From a virus, in the IMG/VR virus record IMGVR_UViG_3300034374_005671, positions 19,370 to 83,369 of that record: a stretch of 64,000 bases of DNA; one strand, written 5' to 3'. The notes beneath the pieces are model-generated. The model had not been told where the DNA came from. It was given only the letters and a program-made list of their open reading frames with translations, and ran no database searches. Below, piece by piece: positions 16,461-54,789 of this stretch (the stretch's first letter is position 1; each line of letters begins with the position of its first letter). A program made the position numbers and the translations under genes.

Positions 16461-19400
16461 ATGGCTACAGCTTATTCACAACCTTTACAGTATACACCTT
16501 ACCAGGAGCAATGGAATAAAGAGCTTCTGGCTAAGGCTTTGCAGTATAAGCAAGATAAATATGATACAAACAGGCAAGTCATAAAAGAGACTATTGCTCA
16601 AGTGTCTAACATCGACTTGATAAAAGACCAAGATGCTGAATATCTATACGACAGACTGCAAACAGTAGTTAACAACTTAAATACTCAAGGTACAGGTGAC
16701 CTCTCTCTAGATTCTAGAGCTGATTACCTAACAGGGTATGTTGCTGATGTGGCAGACCAAAAAGTAATGAATGGTTACATTGGTACTAGGGCATACAGAA
16801 ACGTAGTTGCAGAGCACGAGAAGTATAAAGAAACAGGAGAAGCTTCTGATTTAAATTTATCTTATTCTTTGCAAGATATTAGTGCTTGGGCCAATGATGG
16901 CCAAATCGGAAGCGCATTACCTGCAGGAGCAAATACATCCTATGTAAAGTTTACTGATTTATATGAAAAATACCAAGAGGTAGCAAAAGCTTTACAACCT
17001 GATTCATATGTGGTGTTTGAACAATTTGGTGGAAGCGGATTCACATGGTACAGTCAGGAAGGTCTAAGACTCGATAAAAATAAATTAGTTTCTGCTTTTA
17101 ATTTAGCTACAGAATCAGACCCTGCCATCCAAGACCAGTTAAGAGTAAATGCTTGGGGAGCAAATTTAAATGTTAGTGATGCAGATTTCATAGCAACTTT
17201 TAAAGAAGATGGAGCAAGAGAAAAAGAAGCTATTGGTAGGTACATCAATAGACTAAAAGATGCTAAAGCTAAGAGTGTCAGTTCGTCTGAAATGGCCGAG
17301 TTGGATGCTAACATAGCAATATATGAAGAGCAAGTTAAGCAATATGATGAAGCTCTTATGATGACTGACGAACAGATACTAGCAAATAAAGAATCATACC
17401 AGTATCTTTCATACAGAAGTTCTTATTTTACTGACTTGGCAGGAGTATTTTCATATGAACAAATGGAAGCACCTAAATTAGTAACAGACCAAGGTGCACT
17501 AGAAATGTACAAACAGCAGCAAGCAAACGCTAGAAACAGAGCTAGAATACAATCAAAAGAAGATATAGCTAGGGCAAAAGCAATTGTCGAAGAGGATAAA
17601 ATGAGAATTGAAGATGAAAAAGCACTTAAAGCCTTAGCTATAGAGATACTTAAGGAAGAGGATACGGATATACAAGAGGGAATGTTACGATTCAATCAAG
17701 ATTTAATTGCTCGTAATCCTGAATACGCTGCTAAACTAAATTTAGTTACAAACTTTGAAAAGAAAGAACCTAGATTAACCCTTGAAGAAGCTGCAAGTGA
17801 ATACAATGTAGATTTAGTGGCTGTCAGTGAGGGAGATTACTCGACTATAGCAAGTGCTATGGGGGAAGGTGCAGTCCTTCCCGAGTTTGAAAGCCCCCAA
17901 GAGGCAGCTGCTTTTTTAGTAAGTCAGGCTAACATAGCGAAAGGGTTTGACAACACTAACAGTTACGACCCAATGCTTGATGCTTATCTTGCAAACGGAA
18001 TGATATCTCAAAAACAATATAATGAGATGACAGCTGGAGGTTATTCAAATTTAACTCCAGATGAATTCCAACAACTATTCAACCCTATAGAAACAACGGC
18101 TGGCGTTCAAAACTTACAATTTGACGACATGACTGTCACAACTGATGATGGTGGGCAGGAAGAACTCAATACCCTAAATATTCAGACTAAAATAAATGAG
18201 TTCTATGGTAAAAACGATGTGATAGAAGAGCAAGCCAGAAAAGAACTTGTAACAATATATGGGGAAGAAAAAGGGAATAGACTCTATAGAGAATTGGCAG
18301 GACTGGATAATATGTATTACCTTCGAATTATTGGAAAAGATACAGACGGTAGCAATATTATTCAAAAAGAGTATGCGACCTACGACAAAGACGGCAAAAT
18401 AGATATAAAATCCACGGAAGCTGATTGGGATAGAAATAATTATCTTTGGAATGAAAATGCTAATGAACCAATGTATTATAAGGACCTAGGTACTAATGAT
18501 ATTCGTGCTATGGTTAATCCAGCCGCATTAACTGGTTATAGGCAGGACATACCCGAGGAACAAGTATTTGCAGCTGCTGACAGGTTATCAACTTTAATGA
18601 CTCAGTATTCCGTAAACGAGCAAACTATAAATCACTTAGTAAATGCAAGGGATGGAGTGAGAACAGACTTTCGTTCCATCGCTGACGAGGCAGCAGACAA
18701 TATCATAGATAATAAATTGAGTTTTTTAATTCATAACGATAAAGGAGGGTCTTGGAATGCAATGTACAATGAGGATGAAGACTTATGGTTTATTGAGGGT
18801 ACATGGGATGCGAAGAATATGAGACCACTATCCATAGGCGAGGAGGGTGTAAGAAGAAATCTTAGGAATAAACTAGGTCCAGGTAAAATGCCAGGTAAAG
18901 AGTATTCTTGGTGGAACTTTACAAAATGGGGCACATCAGAGGCAGGTACAGCTGACTATATAGAAACATATGATATAGGCACATGGGGGGCCACAAACAA
19001 AAACAGAATCAGTTTGGAAGCTAATAATGACCAAGCAGAGAGAATCGTATTAGATAACGCCCTACTTCTAACAGCACCTAAAGAGAGTTTTTCTCTTGCA
19101 AGGAACAATGAACAGCAGTATCTTAGCTCAATTATAGCAGCCAACCAATCTAATTTTGAACCTATAACTGCATCTGATATCGCTATGCTTGGTGAAGGCC
19201 AAAATTTACAACTTAAAACAGGAGTTAAGGACGAAGGCGACAAAACAGTAGTACCTGCTGCTTTAGGACGTTTCACGGCCCTTACTGATGGTGCAGTGAT
19301 AGACCAAACAATAAAAAATAATGTAGGAGCTACAGAGGACAATGCAGCTACTACAACAGCTATGGATGGTAACGCAAGTATAATTACTACTGGCGGTTAC

Positions 19401-40896: not shown

Positions 40897-40980
40897 TTAT
40901 TTTGCTTCATACCATGATGTGCCAATATTGGCTTCTGCCCCCATCTCCACTAATCCACTACTAAGATAGTAATTTCCTCC
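40897..40980 (-). repeat. Copy 2 of polymerase 3' end (diverged direct repeat)
   Basis: These 84 bases (27 codons plus TAA) align without gaps to 41912-41995 at about 61 of 84 bases by my hand count. Similarity stops abruptly at the Gly-Gly codons. This copy is read in frame as the tail of the GIY-YIG gene. Confidence 0.85.
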
Positions 40981-41724
40981 TCTGCTATCCTCCACTTCTC
41001 CAAAACTTTTAATACACAATTCTACACCACCTGTCCTACATTCCGTCATACCCTCAAAATCAATAGAGGGTGTGTACTTGTATTCTTTTGTCAAACGTAA
41101 TAATTTTTTTTCTAATTCCCAAATTTTAGAAGCTTCGTTTTCCACGATAGCGACTACTTTGTATTCATAAGGTAGTCTTCCTGAAAAACGTTTCTCCAAA
41201 GTATCCCCTGTTATGCCTATTTTGTAGAACACCTCCTCATCTTTATTCAATTCTAAGATATATAATTTAGGGTTTTTTTCATTGCTCTTTTCTACCCATC
41301 TGTCTTTCTTGTAAGCAGAGTAGTAACCACACTTAGGACAACCATGCCCCCTCTGATGGTGTAATGGTTGTTGCCAAAACTCTCCGTGGGTGGGGCAAGT
41401 AATTTTCATATCTTCTTGAGAGAGAGTAATGGTTTCGGGGTGATAAGTGTATTTACCCCCATGAACTGTTTTAAACTGTTTTATTTTTTCTAAAGGCTTT
41501 ATACTATCTCTTTCTTTTATGTAATCGGCATAACATTTTTTACAGCCTGTGTTTACACTTCTTAAATGTAATTGAGGAGAGGTTTCAAACTCAGTATTAT
41601 GTTTATTACAAAAAACATTTATGCTATTTTTAGAACCTTTAATTACATCAGGATAAGAAAACTTATCACCATGCATATCTCTGAACCTTTCAATCCAGTC
41701 TTTAGTTGTCAGATACTTTCCCAT
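40897..41724 (-). CDS. GIY-YIG homing-endonuclease-like protein fused to a copy of the DNA polymerase C-terminus
   Basis: The 275-residue product has two related zinc modules (about 10-55 with CNKHNTEF and GCKKC; about 80-130 with CPTHGEFWQQP and GCPKC) of the kind found in phage homing endonucleases. A GIY-YIG/T5orf172-like core follows (about 150-180): LYILELNKDEEVFYKIGIT, then LEKRF. The last 27 residues, from GGNYYLSSGLVEMGAEANIG to SWYEAK, match the end of the neighbouring DNA polymerase at 21 of 27 positions. The start overlaps the ribbon-helix-helix gene by 23 bases. Nuclease activity is inferred from the family. The fused tail is directly visible and unusual. Confidence 0.85.
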   Translation of the reverse strand: MGKYLTTKDWIERFRDMHGDKFSYPDVIKGSKNSINVFCNKHNTEFETSPQLHLRSVNTGCKKCYADYIKERDSIKPLEKIKQFKTVHGGKYTYHPETITLSQEDMKITCPTHGEFWQQPLHHQRGHGCPKCGYYSAYKKDRWVEKSNEKNPKLYILELNKDEEVFYKIGITGDTLEKRFSGRLPYEYKVVAIVENEASKIWELEKKLLRLTKEYKYTPSIDFEGMTECRTGGVELCIKSFGEVEDSRGGNYYLSSGLVEMGAEANIGTSWYEAK

Positions 41725-41911: not shown

Positions 41912-41995
41912 TTATTTTGCCTCGTACCAAGAGTCTCCTATATTCGCCTCTGCCTTAATATCTACTAAGCCACTTGTTAAATAGTATTGTCCACC
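41912..41995 (-). repeat. Copy 1 of polymerase 3' end (diverged direct repeat)
   Basis: The last 27 codons and stop of the DNA polymerase gene, mirrored by 40897-40980 about 1 kb downstream. See the GIY-YIG entry. Confidence 0.85.
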
Positions 41996-43936
41996 TTTAA
42001 TCATGCAGTCCTCAAGCACTTTTTTATACTCATCTACTAGGCTTTCATCCACCTCAAGAACAAATTCATCATGGGGTATATTACATATTCTTACCTTTCG
42101 AAAATGTCCATTGTCTACTATATAATCAAAAAGTAAACAAGCGGCTCGTTTTGTCATATGTGCTGAAGTCGCTTGAACAGGGTTGTTCAAGGCCAACCTG
42201 AAGTATTTTCCTTGCCAAGAAAAGTACTTAGAAAGTTTAGGTCTCATCTTTGTATATACCTTGTATGCCTCTTTGTTTACTACGGTATATGTCTCTCCTT
42301 TCTCTTCAGCCTCTTTTTTCTTGTTAGCTTCTACTTTACCTGCCTTGTACAGCTTCTTATCAGCTTCTCCTGTAGCATCCATCCATTTTTTAAGGTCAAG
42401 GAATTGGTCAAACCAAGGAAGGTCTAATTTAAAACCATCTGCTGATTCTACCCACCCATTCTCAATGGATTCTTGCAGTTTCTTTCTGCCCCAAGTATAT
42501 ACTCCAGGATGTAGTTCTTTGTATAGCTGTTCTAATCGTTCCCCTTCCTTTACCTCGATATTAAGACTCTTAGCTGCTGTAAAGCCTGTCCCACCATACG
42601 AGAAACAGAAGCGAGGTGCTTTGGAGAACTGCCTTTTATCTTTATGGTTGTTTTTAATTTCATCGTCAGTTAATTCTTGCAGTTCAGGGAATATCAATCT
42701 TGCGAATGCAGAGTGTAAATCATCTCCATTCTTGATTGAGGATATCATCATTGCATCTTGGTGGAGGTCAGCACCGACCACATTTTCTTGGCCTTCGTAG
42801 TCAGCCACGACCATTTTATATCCATGTGTAGCCACAAAGCAATCCCTAGTTCTCTTATTAGCTGGAAAATTAAGAATATTAACCCCGCCACGCCTAGTAG
42901 AAATTCTAGCAGTATCCAGCACAGGATTAAAATCAGTATAAATTCTGCCATCTTTAATTTTATTTAAAATGTTTTCTCCGTATGTAGATACATCATGCTC
43001 TGCTTGTTTGTATGTTAACCATAACTCTACGAAAGGGTGGCTACTTCTCCTAAGAACATCCTTGTGTAGAGTCTTCTTGTCAGGGTTCTCATCCGATTGT
43101 ACATCAATACCAAACTCCTCAAAGATAGGAATCATTTGTAGAGATGACGACAATAAGGGGATGATACGTGGAGAGCTATCAAACATATCTATCTGTCTGT
43201 CCCTATATTTAGGTAACTCGTCATAGACAAATTTGACCACATCATCCTTAGCTTTTTCTAGAGCAATCTTGTCTTGCTCAATTTTATCTTTCCATTTAGC
43301 TTCTGATATTGGGATACCACACTGCTCCATATAGGCAAGAGCTCTGATATATCGACAATGTAGCTTGAATGTTGGTACACATCCTCTGTCTCGCAACCTT
43401 TCCCCTAAAACTTTAACTAATTCTAATACTTTGTCTACGTCATTGAAAGCATATCGAATAGCTTTTGGATTTGACAATTGGGTCTTAGCAATGTTCTTTT
43501 GCTCACTCTTATCATAGCTGATACCCAACTCACGCTCCATCACAAAACCAAAACCGTGTCTTGTAATTAAACCGTTTCCGTTGTAAAGTATTTTACTTGC
43601 AATAAATGTATCGTAAACTTTTTTAGGTACAAAGTTATATTTGTATAACCACCCAAGGTCGAATGTAAGGTTGTGACCAACCAATGTCTTGCCTTCCAGG
43701 AAAGGAGCCACCTCATCAAATGTTATCTCTCCTCCTAATTGTTGAAGGTCTATAATATAGTTGTCCTTCCCTGTACCTATCTGCACAGAGAACATATGAC
43801 CGTCTATAGGTTTGAGGGAGGTAGTCTCCGAGTCAAACGCAATAACATCAGGTAGCACCATATCTTCTAAGGTGCAATAATTGTACGCTCCTATCTTCTC
43901 AAAGAAAGGACGATTGTTTGTTATGATATAATTCAT
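41912..43936 (-). CDS. polA: Family A DNA polymerase with 3'-5' exonuclease domain
   Basis: This is the replicative polymerase of the phage. The 674-residue product starts with an intact DnaQ-like proofreading domain: FDSETT (Asp35, Glu37), LTFDLGW (Asp103) and YAFNDVD (Tyr162, Asp166). The polymerase domain shows motif A as VVADYEGQENVV (about 377), motif B as RQFSKAPRFCFSYGG, and motif C as PHDEFVLEV (about 618). Motif A has GQ in place of the usual SQI spacing but keeps Asp and Glu. No 5'-3' exonuclease domain is present, as usual in phages. The start ATG overlaps the stop of the small upstream gene by 4 bases. The 3' end is duplicated downstream. Confidence 0.95.
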   Translation of the reverse strand: MNYIITNNRPFFEKIGAYNYCTLEDMVLPDVIAFDSETTSLKPIDGHMFSVQIGTGKDNYIIDLQQLGGEITFDEVAPFLEGKTLVGHNLTFDLGWLYKYNFVPKKVYDTFIASKILYNGNGLITRHGFGFVMERELGISYDKSEQKNIAKTQLSNPKAIRYAFNDVDKVLELVKVLGERLRDRGCVPTFKLHCRYIRALAYMEQCGIPISEAKWKDKIEQDKIALEKAKDDVVKFVYDELPKYRDRQIDMFDSSPRIIPLLSSSLQMIPIFEEFGIDVQSDENPDKKTLHKDVLRRSSHPFVELWLTYKQAEHDVSTYGENILNKIKDGRIYTDFNPVLDTARISTRRGGVNILNFPANKRTRDCFVATHGYKMVVADYEGQENVVGADLHQDAMMISSIKNGDDLHSAFARLIFPELQELTDDEIKNNHKDKRQFSKAPRFCFSYGGTGFTAAKSLNIEVKEGERLEQLYKELHPGVYTWGRKKLQESIENGWVESADGFKLDLPWFDQFLDLKKWMDATGEADKKLYKAGKVEANKKKEAEEKGETYTVVNKEAYKVYTKMRPKLSKYFSWQGKYFRLALNNPVQATSAHMTKRAACLLFDYIVDNGHFRKVRICNIPHDEFVLEVDESLVDEYKKVLEDCMIKGGQYYLTSGLVDIKAEANIGDSWYEAK

Positions 43937-47174: not shown

Positions 47175-49322
47175 TTAACTACTACATCCAAAGCACTCAA
47201 ACTGAGAGTCTTTTGGTTTTTCTTTACTTACTCCTGCTAATTTAGCATTATTTTCAATTTTTGACTTGGTTCTAGTGTAATAAACCCCTGTCTTCAATCT
47301 TTTTTTCCAAGCATACATCAATGCACTTGATATCTTAGAATACTTTGCATCCTTGTGATATACATTCATTGATTGACTTTGGTCTACATACATATTTCTA
47401 ATAGATGCTAAATCAAGCAGAGTCTTCTGTGATATCTCCCACACATCTTTGTATCGGTATCTCACATCTTCAGGTATCTCTACGATGTTTTGGATAGAAC
47501 CGCCATTGGCAATAATCTTATCCATCATCTCTTGATTCCATAATTTTAAATCATCTAACTCACTTACAAGATACTTGTTAATTACAGTAAACTCGCCTTG
47601 ACCAACTCTTCTTGTGAACAAGTTACTTGTCACAGGTTCGAAACTTTCGAACACTCCAAGTAAGATAGAAGAACTTGCCGTAGGCATAAGCCCTAAGAAT
47701 AGAGAGTTCCGAACTTTAATAGGCTCTCTCTGGGAAGGAGCTAACACTCTGCCTGTTACTTTACTTGTGTACATAATTCCTTTACTGTAAGGACTCCCTT
47801 CCCAAGCAGGATACACACCTTCTTCCTCAGCCATCTTCTGACTTTCTTCTACAGCAGACTCATACATAGTTCCGAATATCTTGTGTTGCCAATCAACGGC
47901 TTCCTCTGACTCAAAACTAATTTTCTTCTTTGCGAAGAAGTCTGCCATCCCTGCCACACCAATAGCCAACGCTCTTTGGTCTTCTCCTGCATTCTTGCTC
48001 CAATCATCAGACCACTTATTCTTGTCTATGACTCGGTTAAGCATTCTAGTTAGAACCTTGACACTGTGCTTGATAGTCTTCTCACTCTCATGCTCAGACA
48101 AGTTAATTGAGCCAAGGGTACATTGTGGTGTGTACGAAGGCTTTGATGCTTCCATAATTTCGATGCATAAATTACTTTGTTTAATTACACCGATATTACT
48201 CTGCATATTCTTTCTGTTAGCATTGTCCTTAAAGAACACATAAGGTCTACCTGACTCCACTTGAGACTTGATTATTGAGTCCCAAATTTTCTTAGGTGAT
48301 ATTTCGTGACCAATACCAAGGTCAACTGCCTTCTGATATTCTGCTTCAAACTCCTCACCCCAAAGGTCTTCAAGAGGACGTAACCCGTTGTCTTTCAACA
48401 CTTTAGGGCAGAACAGATGCCAAGGTTCATTGCTCAACAATTTATTCATAAATAAATCGTTAATAGTTACAGACAAGAATAAGTCTCTTGTTCTAAGTTC
48501 TTCTTGTCCTACGGGAAGAGTAAGTTCCAAGAAGTCCATAATGTCTCTGTGCCAAACCGATAGGTATAACGCACAAGAGCCTGAACGAGTACCTTGCTTG
48601 TAGAAACGCATCTTGGACTGAACCATATCAGCGAAACGTACAATCCCTCCTGCCTTTGCACTAAAAGAAGTCACATCTGATTTCTTACTTCTCAAGTTAT
48701 CTATCATAAGACCGATACCTGCACCTTCCTTCGAAGCGTAAGCTATTTTAGTTAAAGTGTTTTCGATGCCATCAATGCTATCTTCTTGCAAGTGAGTGAG
48801 GTTACACGATATCATTCCGTTTCTGCCTTCGATACCTGCATTGGTATAGATAGGTGTAGCACAGTTGATTCGTTTAGTCTTCAGCTCGTCTGCAAATAAT
48901 TTATATTCCTTCTTATCTTTTGCCAAGTGTTTAGCCACTCTCTCGTACATACAAGAGGGTAACTCCGATGGAGAACCATCAACCTTCTTAGAATACTTCT
49001 TCAAGAAAGTAATAGCACCAAAGAAATCGTATGTCTCATCAACAGGTTGAAGAGGCTTATCAATTAATTTAGATAATCTACTTAGTAGCAGTCTACCTCC
49101 TAGCAAACTATAGTCAGGATGCGTAGTCACCATATCGGCTGAAGTAAATGCGATAAGCTCATCGATATCAGTAGTGGTCATCCCATCCTTGATAGATGGG
49201 ATAACCTTCTGAAAAAGTTCGTGAGCATCAACCTTCAAACCTTGAGAGCGATTCTTAATTCTAGTTAAAATTTTGTTAGGAAGAAAATGTTGACTACTTC
49301 CGTCTCTCTTGGTAATTCTCAT
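47175..49322 (-). CDS. nrdA: Ribonucleoside-diphosphate reductase large subunit
   Basis: The class I reductase makes deoxynucleotides for phage DNA. The 715-residue subunit has an N-terminal ATP-cone (about 1-85). Active-site features include the Cys of INCATPIYTN, the NLCIEI segment with Asn/Cys/Glu, and the partner Cys of QCTLGSINLS. The radical-transfer tyrosines lie in VYYTRTKS near the C-terminus. The C-terminal redox tail is FECFGCSS (CxxC). It starts one base after the nrdB stop, giving an nrdB-nrdA order. Confidence 0.95.
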   Translation of the reverse strand: MRITKRDGSSQHFLPNKILTRIKNRSQGLKVDAHELFQKVIPSIKDGMTTTDIDELIAFTSADMVTTHPDYSLLGGRLLLSRLSKLIDKPLQPVDETYDFFGAITFLKKYSKKVDGSPSELPSCMYERVAKHLAKDKKEYKLFADELKTKRINCATPIYTNAGIEGRNGMISCNLTHLQEDSIDGIENTLTKIAYASKEGAGIGLMIDNLRSKKSDVTSFSAKAGGIVRFADMVQSKMRFYKQGTRSGSCALYLSVWHRDIMDFLELTLPVGQEELRTRDLFLSVTINDLFMNKLLSNEPWHLFCPKVLKDNGLRPLEDLWGEEFEAEYQKAVDLGIGHEISPKKIWDSIIKSQVESGRPYVFFKDNANRKNMQSNIGVIKQSNLCIEIMEASKPSYTPQCTLGSINLSEHESEKTIKHSVKVLTRMLNRVIDKNKWSDDWSKNAGEDQRALAIGVAGMADFFAKKKISFESEEAVDWQHKIFGTMYESAVEESQKMAEEEGVYPAWEGSPYSKGIMYTSKVTGRVLAPSQREPIKVRNSLFLGLMPTASSSILLGVFESFEPVTSNLFTRRVGQGEFTVINKYLVSELDDLKLWNQEMMDKIIANGGSIQNIVEIPEDVRYRYKDVWEISQKTLLDLASIRNMYVDQSQSMNVYHKDAKYSKISSALMYAWKKRLKTGVYYTRTKSKIENNAKLAGVSKEKPKDSQFECFGCSS

Positions 49323-49323
49323 C

Positions 49324-50277
49324 TTAAAACTCGTCTGTGAACATACCTTCAGTAGTAGTAGGGATATCTACTCTAGTGTACTGACCTGTTCTTTGTTCAA
49401 AGAAATTGTTTTTCGCTGACAACCCAATACGAGCCATATAGTCAAGTGGGTTTCTAACATTGAAATACTTACCACATCCGAAGTCTTCTAAGACGATATC
49501 AGTAACGTATTTAACGTACTCCAGCATCTCTTCCTTTGTAAGACCTTGTAAGCCATTAGGCATACTATCTAAAACAAACTTCTGCTCTACATCGAAACAC
49601 TCAAGAATGATTTTCTGAATTTCGTGAGTAGGAATTTTGTACTCATCCTTGATGTAGTTGTTGTATAGGTACTGAGCAAACTCATAATGCAAGGATTCAT
49701 CTCTAAGGATTAATTCGTTCATAGAACCCAAGCCATTCATCTTGTTACGTGACCTAAACCAAAACACTCCTGCGAATACAGAGGAGAAAGCAATACCTTC
49801 CACACAAGCAAATGCTACAAGTCGGTGAGCGAATGATGGATGGTCAATCCACTTCTCTGCCCAAGAAGCCTTGTCTTTTACTGCTTGGTTGGTAGACATT
49901 GAATTAAATAAATCGTTTCTTTCTTGGTTGTCTTTGATGTATGTATCAATAAGGAGTGAATAACCATTGGCATGAACCTGTTCTATGAATGTCTGATGCC
50001 CATAAAAATACTGAGCTTCAAGTAGCTCTACTTCATTCATAAAGTTGGTAGCCAAGTTGTCTATCACAAGACCATCAGAGATAGCAAAGAATGCAAGGAT
50101 GTTTTTTAAGTAACTTTTTTCATCTTCTGACAACGCATCGAAGTCATCAGAACTCAAGTCAACCTCCTCGGCAACCCACGTTTGCTTTTCTGCTTTTTTA
50201 TAATAATCCCACAAATCAGTATGGGACAATGGGAAAATAGAATACCTCTTCCCTAAATCCTTAGAGTTTAAATACAT
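49324..50277 (-). CDS. nrdB: Ribonucleoside-diphosphate reductase small subunit
   Basis: The subunit houses the di-iron centre and radical. The 317-residue product shows the Asp ligand in FAISDGLV, the EQVHANGY segment (E-x2-H-x3-Y), which matches the ligand pair and radical tyrosine of class Ia R2, CVEGIAFSS, and RDESLHYEF (E-x2-H). The presence of this Tyr argues against metal-free or tyrosine-lacking variants. It is the first gene after a leader that has a promoter-like sequence and a terminator-like hairpin (50303-50373). Confidence 0.95.
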   Translation of the reverse strand: MYLNSKDLGKRYSIFPLSHTDLWDYYKKAEKQTWVAEEVDLSSDDFDALSEDEKSYLKNILAFFAISDGLVIDNLATNFMNEVELLEAQYFYGHQTFIEQVHANGYSLLIDTYIKDNQERNDLFNSMSTNQAVKDKASWAEKWIDHPSFAHRLVAFACVEGIAFSSVFAGVFWFRSRNKMNGLGSMNELILRDESLHYEFAQYLYNNYIKDEYKIPTHEIQKIILECFDVEQKFVLDSMPNGLQGLTKEEMLEYVKYVTDIVLEDFGCGKYFNVRNPLDYMARIGLSAKNNFFEQRTGQYTRVDIPTTTEGMFTDEF

Positions 50278-50709: not shown

Positions 50710-51357
50710 TTAAAATGGTAAATCTTCTACATTTGGTTTTTTCTCCTCTACTTTTGGTGGTTCAGGTGTTGAGGGTACGTCTTGAGATTCGCCAAAGTTC
50801 TCACTTAGTTGTTTCTTCATAAAGTTATACAAGTAATCGTTACGCTTCTCAAAGTTAGGCTTCTTCTTGCCCATACTTTCTTTCCATTCGATTGGTGGGA
50901 TATCACCATCGGGATTGTTTGCAGTTTGGTATGTAAGTGCCTTCTCTACTTTCTCTGTGCCATCCTTACGGAAAGTAAGACCACGATACTGATACTTACT
51001 ACCTTCGGGTTGATAGACAAATCCTGTCACATCATACTCCATACCTTTCTGTAGATTAGGTAACTGACGAATGATGTTCTCAGCAAAAGGAGAAATCTCA
51101 TCTCTATCCATTAAAGGAACTTCGATTTGGAAGTAATCCTCGTTACGTAATACTACAGCAAGAGTCTGCCCAAAGTTAGTGTCTCGATGCTTAATAGAAA
51201 CTAATGCTCCTGATATAGGCTTACGATACACCTTCTTGTAGTTAACACCTGAACGTCCTGCAACGCTCCATTCATTCTTTTCAAAACCCTCTTGAGGTTC
51301 TTTGGAAGTCTCATAAATACTCCCATCCTTAAAACTTACTTTCAAATAATGTGTCAT
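50710..51357 (-). CDS. ssb: Single-stranded DNA-binding protein
   Basis: The 215-residue product has a beta-rich N-terminal ~125 residues compatible with an OB fold (LKVSFKDGSIYET; YDVTGFVYQPEGSKYQYRG). It continues with a helical segment, a proline-rich linker (STPEPPKVEEKKPNVE) and the terminal acidic-hydrophobic tip DLPF, the hallmark used by SSB to recruit partners. It is located among nuclease, primase and reductase genes. The fold call is inferred; the SSB tail is directly visible. Confidence 0.78.
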   Translation of the reverse strand: MTHYLKVSFKDGSIYETSKEPQEGFEKNEWSVAGRSGVNYKKVYRKPISGALVSIKHRDTNFGQTLAVVLRNEDYFQIEVPLMDRDEISPFAENIIRQLPNLQKGMEYDVTGFVYQPEGSKYQYRGLTFRKDGTEKVEKALTYQTANNPDGDIPPIEWKESMGKKKPNFEKRNDYLYNFMKKQLSENFGESQDVPSTPEPPKVEEKKPNVEDLPF

Positions 51358-51945: not shown

Positions 51946-52175
51946 ACTACTTTTAAAATTTCTCCGTTATCGTTCACTAATATACTAACTTTATATTTAT
52001 TATCCAAGTTTTGTGCGATAATATGGAAAGCATTTGGTATGTGTTGTAAAACCCAAACCAATTCATCCATACTCTTGCCCTCTTGCTGACACCACATATT
52101 CAAGAACTGTGCTTTAGTTTGTTGTGTTGCATGAGTACCTCGGTACAAGTTAATATAATCTTTTTTACTTAACAT
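51942..52175 (-). CDS. Hypothetical protein, 77 residues
   Basis: I place the start at ATG 52175 (MLSKKDYINLYRGTHATQQT), overlapping the nuclease gene by 11 bases; an upstream start at 52232 would overlap by 68. The sequence has helical character with FLNMWCQQEGKSMDELVWVL, then a two-strand end (YKVSILVNDNGEILKVV). Unknown function. Confidence 0.65.
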   Translation of the reverse strand: MLSKKDYINLYRGTHATQQTKAQFLNMWCQQEGKSMDELVWVLQHIPNAFHIIAQNLDNKYKVSILVNDNGEILKVV

Positions 52176-52899
52176 TAAGTGCTTTGAATATCTTGTAATA
52201 GTCCGATATCTCTTTGACTGTCTCTCTAACAATAGACTCTGCTCTTTCTATTGATTTCTGAGAGAATAGATATTTCTCTTTCCAAATGTTATTACCTACA
52301 GTAAGAGACTCTCTTCCTCCACCATTCATACACTCTCTACCTCCAAGTCTTTCTATAATGAGATACTCGGCTCTCTTCACCTCAAGACCTCTCTGCTGAA
52401 GACCTAAGATATACAATTCTAATTGTAGTTTCTTTGGGTCATGCAAGTCAGCCTTAGAACTTTTTGATTTAGTCTTATAGTCTCTGACTATCTCTACAAT
52501 CCCATCCTTCTCTTCTGTTCTGTCATCAATATAACCAAGAAGGCAAAAGTCTCCAAAGTCTACAACTATCTCATCTTGGAATATACCCAAAGGCTTGACA
52601 TCTCTTAGGATAATCATCTCCTCATCATCGAATGGCTCACATTGCCCAAGAGTCACACAATCTTCTACCTCAGTACCGAACTGCCCCCAACCCATATCAG
52701 GGAATCGCTCACCTAAGAAGTATCTAATCATATACTCCTTGTTACCTGCCATACCCGTGTTGAATCCTTTCTTGGCAGTCCAAGATTCTACTTGTGACCA
52801 ACTTGTTACAGGCATCCCAATAAACTTCTCGTGTTCGGGACGACTGCCCCCTCTTTCCCACTGCTCACGTGAGTACTTTTTAGGTAATTCTAAACTCAT
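52165..52899 (-). CDS. RecB-like PD-(D/E)XK nuclease
   Basis: The product is a 244-residue exonuclease-type protein. The catalytic core is visible as CLLGYIDDRTEE, then VRDYKTKS (Asp...Asp-x-Lys variant of the D-ExK motif), followed by the RecB-family motif QLELYILGLQ (QxxxY). Such nucleases act in phage recombination or as a primer-linked Cas4/RecB-type exonuclease. ATG 52899 begins one base after the stop of the small membrane gene; ATG 52914 is an alternative that would overlap it by 14 bases. Confidence 0.82.
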   Translation of the reverse strand: MSLELPKKYSREQWERGGSRPEHEKFIGMPVTSWSQVESWTAKKGFNTGMAGNKEYMIRYFLGERFPDMGWGQFGTEVEDCVTLGQCEPFDDEEMIILRDVKPLGIFQDEIVVDFGDFCLLGYIDDRTEEKDGIVEIVRDYKTKSKSSKADLHDPKKLQLELYILGLQQRGLEVKRAEYLIIERLGGRECMNGGGRESLTVGNNIWKEKYLFSQKSIERAESIVRETVKEISDYYKIFKALNVK

Positions 52900-52900
52900 C

Positions 52901-53029
52901 TTATTCTTCGTCATCTAGGTTAAAATCATCATTCTCTAAGAAGTCTCCTTCGGGTATGGTCTTACCTGCGTAGTAGAATATACCAAATATGATTGTTAAA
53001 CAAACTATAATAATTATTGCATTCATCAT
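52901..53029 (-). CDS. Small single-pass membrane protein, 42 residues
   Basis: ATG 53029 to TAA 52901 encodes MMNAIIIIVCLTIIFGIFYY then an acidic tail (EGDFLENDDFNLDDEE). A single N-terminal hydrophobic helix with a cytoplasmic-type acidic tail is clear. It fills the whole gap between two replication genes and its TAA is one base from the next ATG. Unknown function. Confidence 0.6.
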   Translation of the reverse strand: MMNAIIIIVCLTIIFGIFYYAGKTIPEGDFLENDDFNLDDEE

Positions 53030-53039
53030 TTTACTTTAT

Positions 53040-53891
53040 TTAAAATAATCCATTTAGTTCGTTAGGAATGTCCCCCTTGAACATTGTATCTAATATATCC
53101 TTAGTTGCCTTGGGGTCTAGATTCATTGAACTTAATTTGTCTTTTAGGTCTCCGATATCTTTGACTGATACAACGCCATTGTAAGCCTTCTCTAACGTAC
53201 CAAGTTCTGCATTTGCAAGTATCTCATCTTTCCAATCAGTCTTGATACCCGCCATTCTTTTAAGGATGTCGTGACAAATACGAACATTCACTTCACATCG
53301 GTGAGTAATCTCTTCGTACTCCTCGTGGATGTACATACTCGCAACATCTTTACCTAGAATAATACTCTCTGCATAGTCCAAATTAAATGCGTGAGCAAGA
53401 GACAACAGAGGTGCTGACACAGGAGAAGAACCCTGCCACAAATCTTTTATATCAAGAATCCAATTGATATCCCAAGGCTTCAGTCCTGATACATCAAACA
53501 ACTCGTGTACTGAGATGTCGTTGATGACAGACCTACGCATAACGTAGGGAATAGCAAATCCTTTTAGAGAATGCCCACACAAGGTAAGACTGCCCCAAGT
53601 TCTTCGGAATGCATCTACCATTTTGTAAGTAGTCTCAAGAATCTCCTTCTCGTCACCTTGAATAGTCTTGATGTTTAGGTGGTGATTCTTTACGTATCCA
53701 AGTGACACACAAAATATCTTTCCGAACTCAGCAAACAAAGGTGCAGTCTCTGTGTAGGAATCAGAGTCATCTACACGCTCTGACCAACTATTATGCATAA
53801 GACCTTCTTTGGCTAACTCAGTCTCTTGTGGGACTGTTTCAATGCTGATAAAAAGAATTTTCTCTAGGTTGATTTTCTTTACTGCTCTCAT
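53040..53891 (-). CDS. PolB-exonuclease-related DnaQ-fold protein lacking catalytic acids
   Basis: The 283-residue protein aligns by eye with the predicted 3'-5' exonuclease family DNA_pol_B_exo2 (PF10108): ILFISIETVPQ at the N-terminus, LFAEFGKIFCVSLGY, LCGHSLKGFAIPYVMRR, LKPWDINWILDIKDLW, and ITHRCEVNVRICHDIL. In the family these motifs read DIETVP, GFDLP or EFDFP, and YC-x-x-DV. Here Asp is Ser, Asp is Ala, and Asp is Asn; only Glu of motif I remains. So it is probably not a nuclease but a structural or DNA-binding partner. The gene overlaps the primase gene by 53 bases and precedes the RecB-like nuclease. Confidence 0.82.
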   Translation of the reverse strand: MRAVKKINLEKILFISIETVPQETELAKEGLMHNSWSERVDDSDSYTETAPLFAEFGKIFCVSLGYVKNHHLNIKTIQGDEKEILETTYKMVDAFRRTWGSLTLCGHSLKGFAIPYVMRRSVINDISVHELFDVSGLKPWDINWILDIKDLWQGSSPVSAPLLSLAHAFNLDYAESIILGKDVASMYIHEEYEEITHRCEVNVRICHDILKRMAGIKTDWKDEILANAELGTLEKAYNGVVSVKDIGDLKDKLSSMNLDPKATKDILDTMFKGDIPNELNGLF

Positions 53892-54789
53892 TTTTTACTG
53901 CTTTAATTATGTAATCTGCTATATCGTCTCCTTCTTCTAAGAATTCCGATTCTTCTACAAATGTAGAAACTTTTATTGACTTTACCAAATTTTTATTTAA
54001 AAATTCTTTGGCTTTTATTTTCCAATACCCAAAACTCCGTTCTCCTTTGTCGGGATGTAGTACCACATCTCTACCCTCTAAGTTAGGTAAAATATGTTCT
54101 TGCAAGTTAGTTACTGAAGATGTCGCTAACCAAATGTGTTGAGGTCGCACACAAGCCATAATCAGAGCAGTCTTCTCTGACTCGACTATATGTACGGCAT
54201 CATTAGGTCGGAGTGGAAGTAGATGGGAACCAAAAGAACACATTCTAAAATTGAAATCATCCATTCTAGAATGTAACCATTTTATATTTTTATATGTCTT
54301 ATCAAACTTTGTTCTCTTAGGTTCACCATCTACCATGTGGTAATTCATAATCTTTCCACTCCTAACCTTCTTAAACTCGTCAATGAACCAAAAGATAGGG
54401 GCAAAACCCCCATTGAAAGGCACAGAGACTACGTTGTAGGCAATTAAAACTGCCAAGTGATTGTCACCCCAATGCTTACGGAGAAAGTCCGTTAGAGGGT
54501 CTGTATTTGCGTAGCAAGTTGCCAATGATTTTTTAACTAAATCCAAAGGCATCACCGACATAGGCTTTTCTACATACTTAACTTCGTCTTCTTTAAGTAT
54601 TACTTGCCCTTTTGGTCTGTTCTCGTAGCCACACTTGTTGACTCTATCACACACTCCGTACTGAGAATCGCACAATTTGTCCTCCTTCTTGTCGAAAAAT
54701 AAATTAAATCGTTTTATTCCTCCACAACTTGGGCAGTTGACCTTGAAGTTTCGTCCATGTCTTGCTTTCGCAAACTCGTATCTATACAC
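53839..54789 (-). CDS. Zinc-finger TOPRIM primase (DnaG-like)
   Basis: The 316-residue product makes primers for replication. The N-terminal zinc finger is CPSCGGIKRF with a second Cys pair in CDRVNKCGY (about 19-56). The TOPRIM core is VHIVESEKTALIM (catalytic Glu) and DVVLHPDKG (Asp-x-Asp-like). It resembles short primases of Bacteroidota elements and phages more than full DnaG. It is coupled to the upstream gene by an 8-base overlap and lies with the nuclease and SSB genes. Confidence 0.85.
   Translation of the reverse strand: MYRYEFAKARHGRNFKVNCPSCGGIKRFNLFFDKKEDKLCDSQYGVCDRVNKCGYENRPKGQVILKEDEVKYVEKPMSVMPLDLVKKSLATCYANTDPLTDFLRKHWGDNHLAVLIAYNVVSVPFNGGFAPIFWFIDEFKKVRSGKIMNYHMVDGEPKRTKFDKTYKNIKWLHSRMDDFNFRMCSFGSHLLPLRPNDAVHIVESEKTALIMACVRPQHIWLATSSVTNLQEHILPNLEGRDVVLHPDKGERSFGYWKIKAKEFLNKNLVKSIKVSTFVEESEFLEEGDDIADYIIKAVKNESSKENQPRENSFYQH

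Follow-up and report, generated by a model that had tools for sequence, protein, structure and literature searches.

A free-standing phage protein of the PF10108 exonuclease family predicted to have lost catalysis

What could a phage gain from keeping an exonuclease-like protein that no longer appears able to cut? The question is raised by a gene in a 64,000-nucleotide stretch of viral DNA (positions 19,370 to 83,369 of IMG/VR virus record IMGVR_UViG_3300034374_005671; hereafter, the window), in which an earlier note, made from the sequence alone, had recognized a DnaQ-fold protein lacking three of its four catalytic acids. Here we describe the gene, its homologs, the selection acting on it and its genomic neighborhood, and weigh the roles that its product might have.

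Results

Catalytic residues and family assignment

The gene and the positions within it are as follows:
53040..53891, minus strand: putative pseudo-exonuclease gene, PF10108/PHROG_25228 homolog, 283 aa, ATG start
53844..53846, minus strand: codon 16, AGC, Ser where the motif I Asp is expected
53838..53840, minus strand: codon 18, GAA, Glu, the sole acid kept
53553..53555, minus strand: codon 113, GCT, Ala where the motif II Asp is expected
53298..53300, minus strand: codon 198, CGA, Arg where the DEDDy Tyr of motif III is expected
53286..53288, minus strand: codon 202, AAT, Asn where the motif III Asp is expected
53040..53255, minus strand: C-terminal helical extension, approximately residues 213-283, common to the phi38:1, phi17:2 and G001 homologs

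The 283-aa open reading frame stands alone, without a helicase domain, and its product has a net charge of -12. Motif I reads F-I-S16-I-E18-T-V-P (D-x-E in homologs), motif II reads G-F-A113-I-P (G-F-D in homologs) and motif III reads R198-C-E-V-N202-V (Y-x3-D in homologs). These residues confirm the reported loss of three of the four metal-binding acids, with S16, A113 and N202 encoded by AGC, GCT and AAT and only E18 remaining. Overlooked at the time was that the catalytic Tyr of Y-x3-D, which defines the DEDDy class, is also gone, its place being taken by Arg198. Alignment with homologs revealed no convincing replacement acid at or beside the lost positions of the window protein. DEDDy exonucleases work by an established two-metal mechanism and, because three of its metal ligands and the tyrosine are missing, the window protein very probably has no metal-dependent exonuclease activity.

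Among family profiles, the protein is matched by PHROG_25228, "3'-5' exonuclease" (E=1.6e-38), and by PF10108 (E=6.6e-5), the latter at 23.1 bits, which is 0.9 bits below the curated 24-bit cut-off. It is 36% identical to the phage phi38:1 homolog, and a sequence search of the PDB with it returned only chance matches to Hermes transposase. Structure prediction, as the earlier note had proposed, indicated that the PolB-exonuclease fold is kept. The AlphaFold2 model (pLDDT 80.1) combines a DnaQ/PolB-exonuclease fold with a C-terminal part that is helical and modelled with less certainty; the intact phi38:1 homolog was modelled in an identical arrangement (pLDDT 84.7). Top structural matches (Foldseek) were archaeal family B polymerases, across a stretch as long as their exonuclease region, and the exonuclease of phage phi4:1. 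Judged by sequence similarity and modelled fold, the window protein belongs to the PF10108 family by descent; it lacks the complete set of DEDD ligands and the motif III Tyr expected of an enzyme of that family.

Loss of catalytic residues across a phage clade

We gathered homologs from phage records and IMG/VR, of which 27, some of them near-duplicates, fall outside the clade of the window protein. Represented among them are phages of Cellulophaga, Flavobacterium, Vibrio, Serratia, Klebsiella, Rhizobium and Pseudomonas, alongside uncultured phages. D, E, D and D are kept in 27/27, G001 included (motif I is not covered in L023), and Tyr occupies the R198 column in 26/27. The exception at that column, L006 (3860-4534 of its 735-kb phage record), keeps the four acids and has Lys for the motif III Tyr. 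Homolog L022 (2002-2847 in IMGVR_UViG_3300031215_000124) is open only with TGA read as an amino acid, with 8 TGA in the matched stretch; the same holds for its neighbor genes, marking a phage with TGA recoding.

The catalytic columns read D/E/D/Y/D in other homologs, in contrast to S/E/A/R/N in the window protein and L007 and S/E/I/R/N in L008. This clade has three known members only, two of them 99% identical (the window protein and L007), while L008, from another metagenome, is 66% identical to the window protein. Within it the S/A/N pattern is fixed except for Ile in place of A113 in L008, which settles a question posed by the earlier note. That note had also named Asp at all sites in close relatives as the sign of a recent defect; we examined this, and both L007 and L008 share the loss.

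A fully supported branch (100/100) splits the window protein, L007 and L008 from the rest of the tree, where their nearest neighbor is the homolog of G001 (support 89/90). G001, a phage contig of 130 kb, has intact residues; its PolA and primase are 57% and 44% identical to those of the window. Given the position of the clade beside intact G001, catalytic loss most likely dates to after the G001 split and before the L008 split, on a long stem. Searches via the PD-(D/E)XK and primase genes described below, the GLKPWDI and THRCEVNV motifs, the G001 homolog and genome contigs yielded no further pseudo-exonucleases.

Selection on the clade gene

Selection on the clade gene is purifying. The window gene and L007 are separated by 22 synonymous and 4 nonsynonymous nucleotide changes, the latter affecting three residues (dN/dS 0.045). 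Compared with L008, dN is 0.216, synonymous sites are saturated and neither an indel nor a stop occurs in the 283 codons; S16, R198 and N202 are identical, and the E18 codon differs synonymously (GAA to GAG). From 13 non-redundant intact homologs, we defined a conserved set of 23 columns, each kept in at least 80% of them. Both the window protein and L008 have lost 4/5 catalytic columns versus 2/18 other conserved columns (one-sided Fisher P=0.008). Chance or error is excluded by this bias and by the recurrence of S16, R198 and N202 in a contig with 66% identity, and a recent defect or sequencing error is likewise ruled out by the changes shared with L008 together with the dN/dS.

Overall, the conservation pattern marks a pseudoenzyme rather than a relic: catalytic loss has become fixed in the lineage and the protein has been kept by selection, as seen in three members of which two are near-identical. 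Conserved K175 is replaced by Glu in both the window and L008 lineages, which may weaken DNA binding and cautions against assuming it.

Linkage to a PD-(D/E)XK nuclease gene

Three nearby genes bear on the role of the protein:
53839..54789, minus strand: primase-like gene (zinc ribbon, DUF6371, weak Toprim), upstream of the pseudo-exonuclease gene with a 53-bp overlap
52165..52914, minus strand: RecB/Cas4-like PD-(D/E)XK nuclease gene with intact catalytic motifs, downstream of the pseudo-exonuclease gene
50710..51357, minus strand: 215-aa protein with SSB-like acidic C-terminal tip EDLPF, recognized by inspection only, no family match

The placement of the gene between primase and RecB-like genes holds, as does the 53-base overlap: the primase-like gene (53839-54789) runs into the open reading frame (53040-53891), and the RecB/Cas4-like gene is 125 bp off. 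Downstream, the PD-(D/E)XK gene is followed by a gene for a 189-aa protein and then by that for the 215-aa SSB-like-tailed protein. In the window the overlap takes in the first 17 codons of the pseudo-exonuclease gene and part of the 18th. A constraint from this overlap was considered as the cause of S16 and rejected, because in L008 the overlap spans only 23 bp and codon 16, which lies beyond it, still encodes Ser. Primase adjacency is absent in phi38:1, phi17:2 and L072. In G001 the primase and exonuclease genes, neighbors in the window, have two homing-endonuclease-like genes (L016 6899-7897, and 11679-12488) between them.

Linkage between the exonuclease gene and a PD-(D/E)XK homolog is conserved in the window, G002 (the phage of L008), G001, phi38:1, phi17:2 and L072, among them four lineages with intact exonucleases. 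The homolog comes immediately after the exonuclease gene in phi17:2 and L072, two small genes after it in phi38:1 and ~2.7 kb downstream in G001; none was detected in FPSV-S1, where we also looked. Motif residues I-D, D-x-K-T and Q-x3-Y of the PD-(D/E)XK proteins are invariant in 6/6 aligned, including that of the window. The linkage is older than the loss of catalytic residues from the exonuclease and has outlived it. Within a dense phage replication operon, such linkage is weak evidence for contact between the products. The family gene adjoins genes for Erf-type annealing proteins in four phages, three of Vibrio and one from spring water, in most of which an SSB-like gene is also present; these neighbors point to recombination or end processing as an ancestral role.

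PolA and other observations in the window

Proofreading had been attributed to the polymerase of the same phage:
41912..43936, minus strand: PolA with intact 3'-5' exonuclease domain (PF01612)

This attribution is borne out, as the PolA exonuclease domain matches PF01612 with E=6e-22 and D-x-E, N-L-T-F-D and Y-x3-D are all present. G002 encodes a second DEDDy protein (L036) with intact motifs and with homologs in G001 and phi38:1; no match to it was found in the 83-kb record of the window, which may be incomplete. With the PolA exonuclease intact, and with L036 in G002, the lost PF10108 catalysis would be redundant.

The gene after PolA (40897-41724), which is DUF4379-type and homing-endonuclease-like, ends in a 29-residue copy of the PolA C terminus (72% identical) and looks like a mobile gene bearing a copy of the 3' end of its target. 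A gene copying the PolA C terminus was found in contig G004 too. Both ribonucleotide reductase genes of the window (47175-50277) share 97-99.7% identity with their counterparts in phage G002, with dS of 0.11-0.32. Genes flanking this cassette show dS of ~1 or saturation in the same comparison, and the difference suggests that the cassette was recently exchanged between phages.

Discussion

We favor an explanation in which the pseudo-exonuclease is a non-cutting subunit, most likely tied to the PD-(D/E)XK nuclease, and consider the chances that this is correct as a whole to be about even. We take the protein to be a true pseudo-exonuclease, descended from a DEDDy 3'-5' exonuclease of PF10108, a family with a place in the replication-recombination module of Bacteroidota phages. 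One phage clade has lost metal ligands and the catalytic tyrosine and kept the fold and C-terminal extension. The resulting subunit would bind 3' ends, ssDNA or protein partners, both at forks and at ends undergoing recombination, and would most likely recruit or restrain the adjacent intact RecB/Cas4-like PD-(D/E)XK nuclease, leaving proofreading and 3' trimming to the PolA exonuclease domain and, where present, to the second intact DEDDy protein. Some binding or docking role is probable, while the adjacent nuclease is only tentatively put forward as the exact partner.

As for the earlier note, its view of a conserved fold without catalysis stands, in light of clade-wide fixation, purifying selection, the fold model and the lack of a substitute acid. 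The scaffold, fork-binding or nuclease-regulating role that it proposed is plausible, and the ancient link to an intact PD-(D/E)XK nuclease favors the nuclease-partner version. A stronger form of this version, in which the adjacent Cas4/RecB-like nuclease has the dead exonuclease as its obligate subunit for regulation or targeting and the two form an ancient pair of end-processing nucleases in Bacteroidota phages, strikes us as rather unlikely. If true, one partner would have turned into a pure structural platform with the exonuclease/nuclease pair still linked.

A replisome scaffold is another candidate, with the dead exonuclease joining primase, PolA or the SSB-like protein at the fork and the PD-(D/E)XK nuclease not needed. 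It would suit the overlapping primase-like gene, the SSB-like gene in the same operon and the inactivated DnaQ-like domains that polymerases commonly carry (PMC12926913). However, linkage to the PD-(D/E)XK gene is wider than that to the primase gene, which is not adjacent in phi38:1, phi17:2 or L072 and is set apart by two endonuclease-like genes in G001, and we regard this scaffold as unlikely. Retention of the substrate-binding fold and of most conserved non-catalytic residues would also be expected of a 3'-end binder or decoy that shields the 3' ends or ssDNA of the phage from nucleases of either host or phage, or that titrates a nucleotide or nucleic acid signal, and a non-cutting binding role has been proposed for the pExoDinG pseudo-exonuclease domain (PMC11981726). 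K175E and the net charge give no hint of stronger DNA binding, and we give this reading little credence.

Continued catalysis by E18 together with other residues, in a rearranged active site, could explain why E18 is kept through a synonymous change and why the motif regions are conserved. It is highly improbable, however, as three of the four metal ligands are lost, the tyrosine is gone too, and no new acid has arisen at or next to these sites. Lastly, while catalytic loss can start decay, a decaying relic or an assembly error is scarcely credible, as independent contigs share the changes, synonymous outnumber nonsynonymous changes relative to L007, and the reading frame is free of indels and stops relative to L008 despite saturated synonymous sites.

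Whichever partner the non-cutting subunit has, the automatic label "3'-5' exonuclease" for the family would mislead for the window clade. Active-looking cousins (phi38:1, G001) and the dead clade, in similar gene neighborhoods, amount to a natural, free-standing separation of function, and this contrast allows one to ask what a DnaQ-type protein offers a phage beyond cutting. The finding also draws attention to a conserved, uncharacterized pair, PF10108 exonuclease and RecB/Cas4-like nuclease.

Comparison with known systems

Pseudo-exonuclease domains of the DnaQ fold are already known, but among the open-licence papers searched, none described a free-standing phage example from the PF10108 family or offered a direct precedent for an inactive DnaQ-like phage protein that stands alone. 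The closest relatives are the predicted 3'-5' exonucleases of PF10108/COG3298 (PHROG_25228), such as phi38:1 gp4 and phi17:2 gp164 of Cellulophaga phages and Calle_1 gp33. The window protein resembles them in full-length homology, fold, C-terminal extension and a nearby PD-(D/E)XK gene; unlike these proteins, which hold D-E-D-D and Tyr, its clade retains the Glu only. The pExoDinG domain likewise has a DEDDy-type fold without catalytic acids and Tyr, and regulatory binding has been proposed for it (PMC11981726), but it is bacterial and fused to a DinG helicase, whereas the window protein is a free-standing phage protein of another family. The inactivated DnaQ-like domains of Pol I orthologs, PolB2 and PolA2 belong to the same superfamily and have also retained the fold and lost catalysis (PMC12926913). 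They lie within a polymerase chain, in contrast to the separate gene of the window, whose PolA exonuclease domain is intact.

For the pairing itself, a precedent is provided by the fusions of COG2251, in which a PF13482 RNase-H-like exonuclease is joined to a Cas4-like DUF83 domain (PMC3985635). As in the window, a PolB-exonuclease-related domain is paired with a RecB/Cas4-like nuclease; unlike the single, presumed active chain of COG2251, the window pair is encoded by two genes, and its exonuclease is predicted to be dead.
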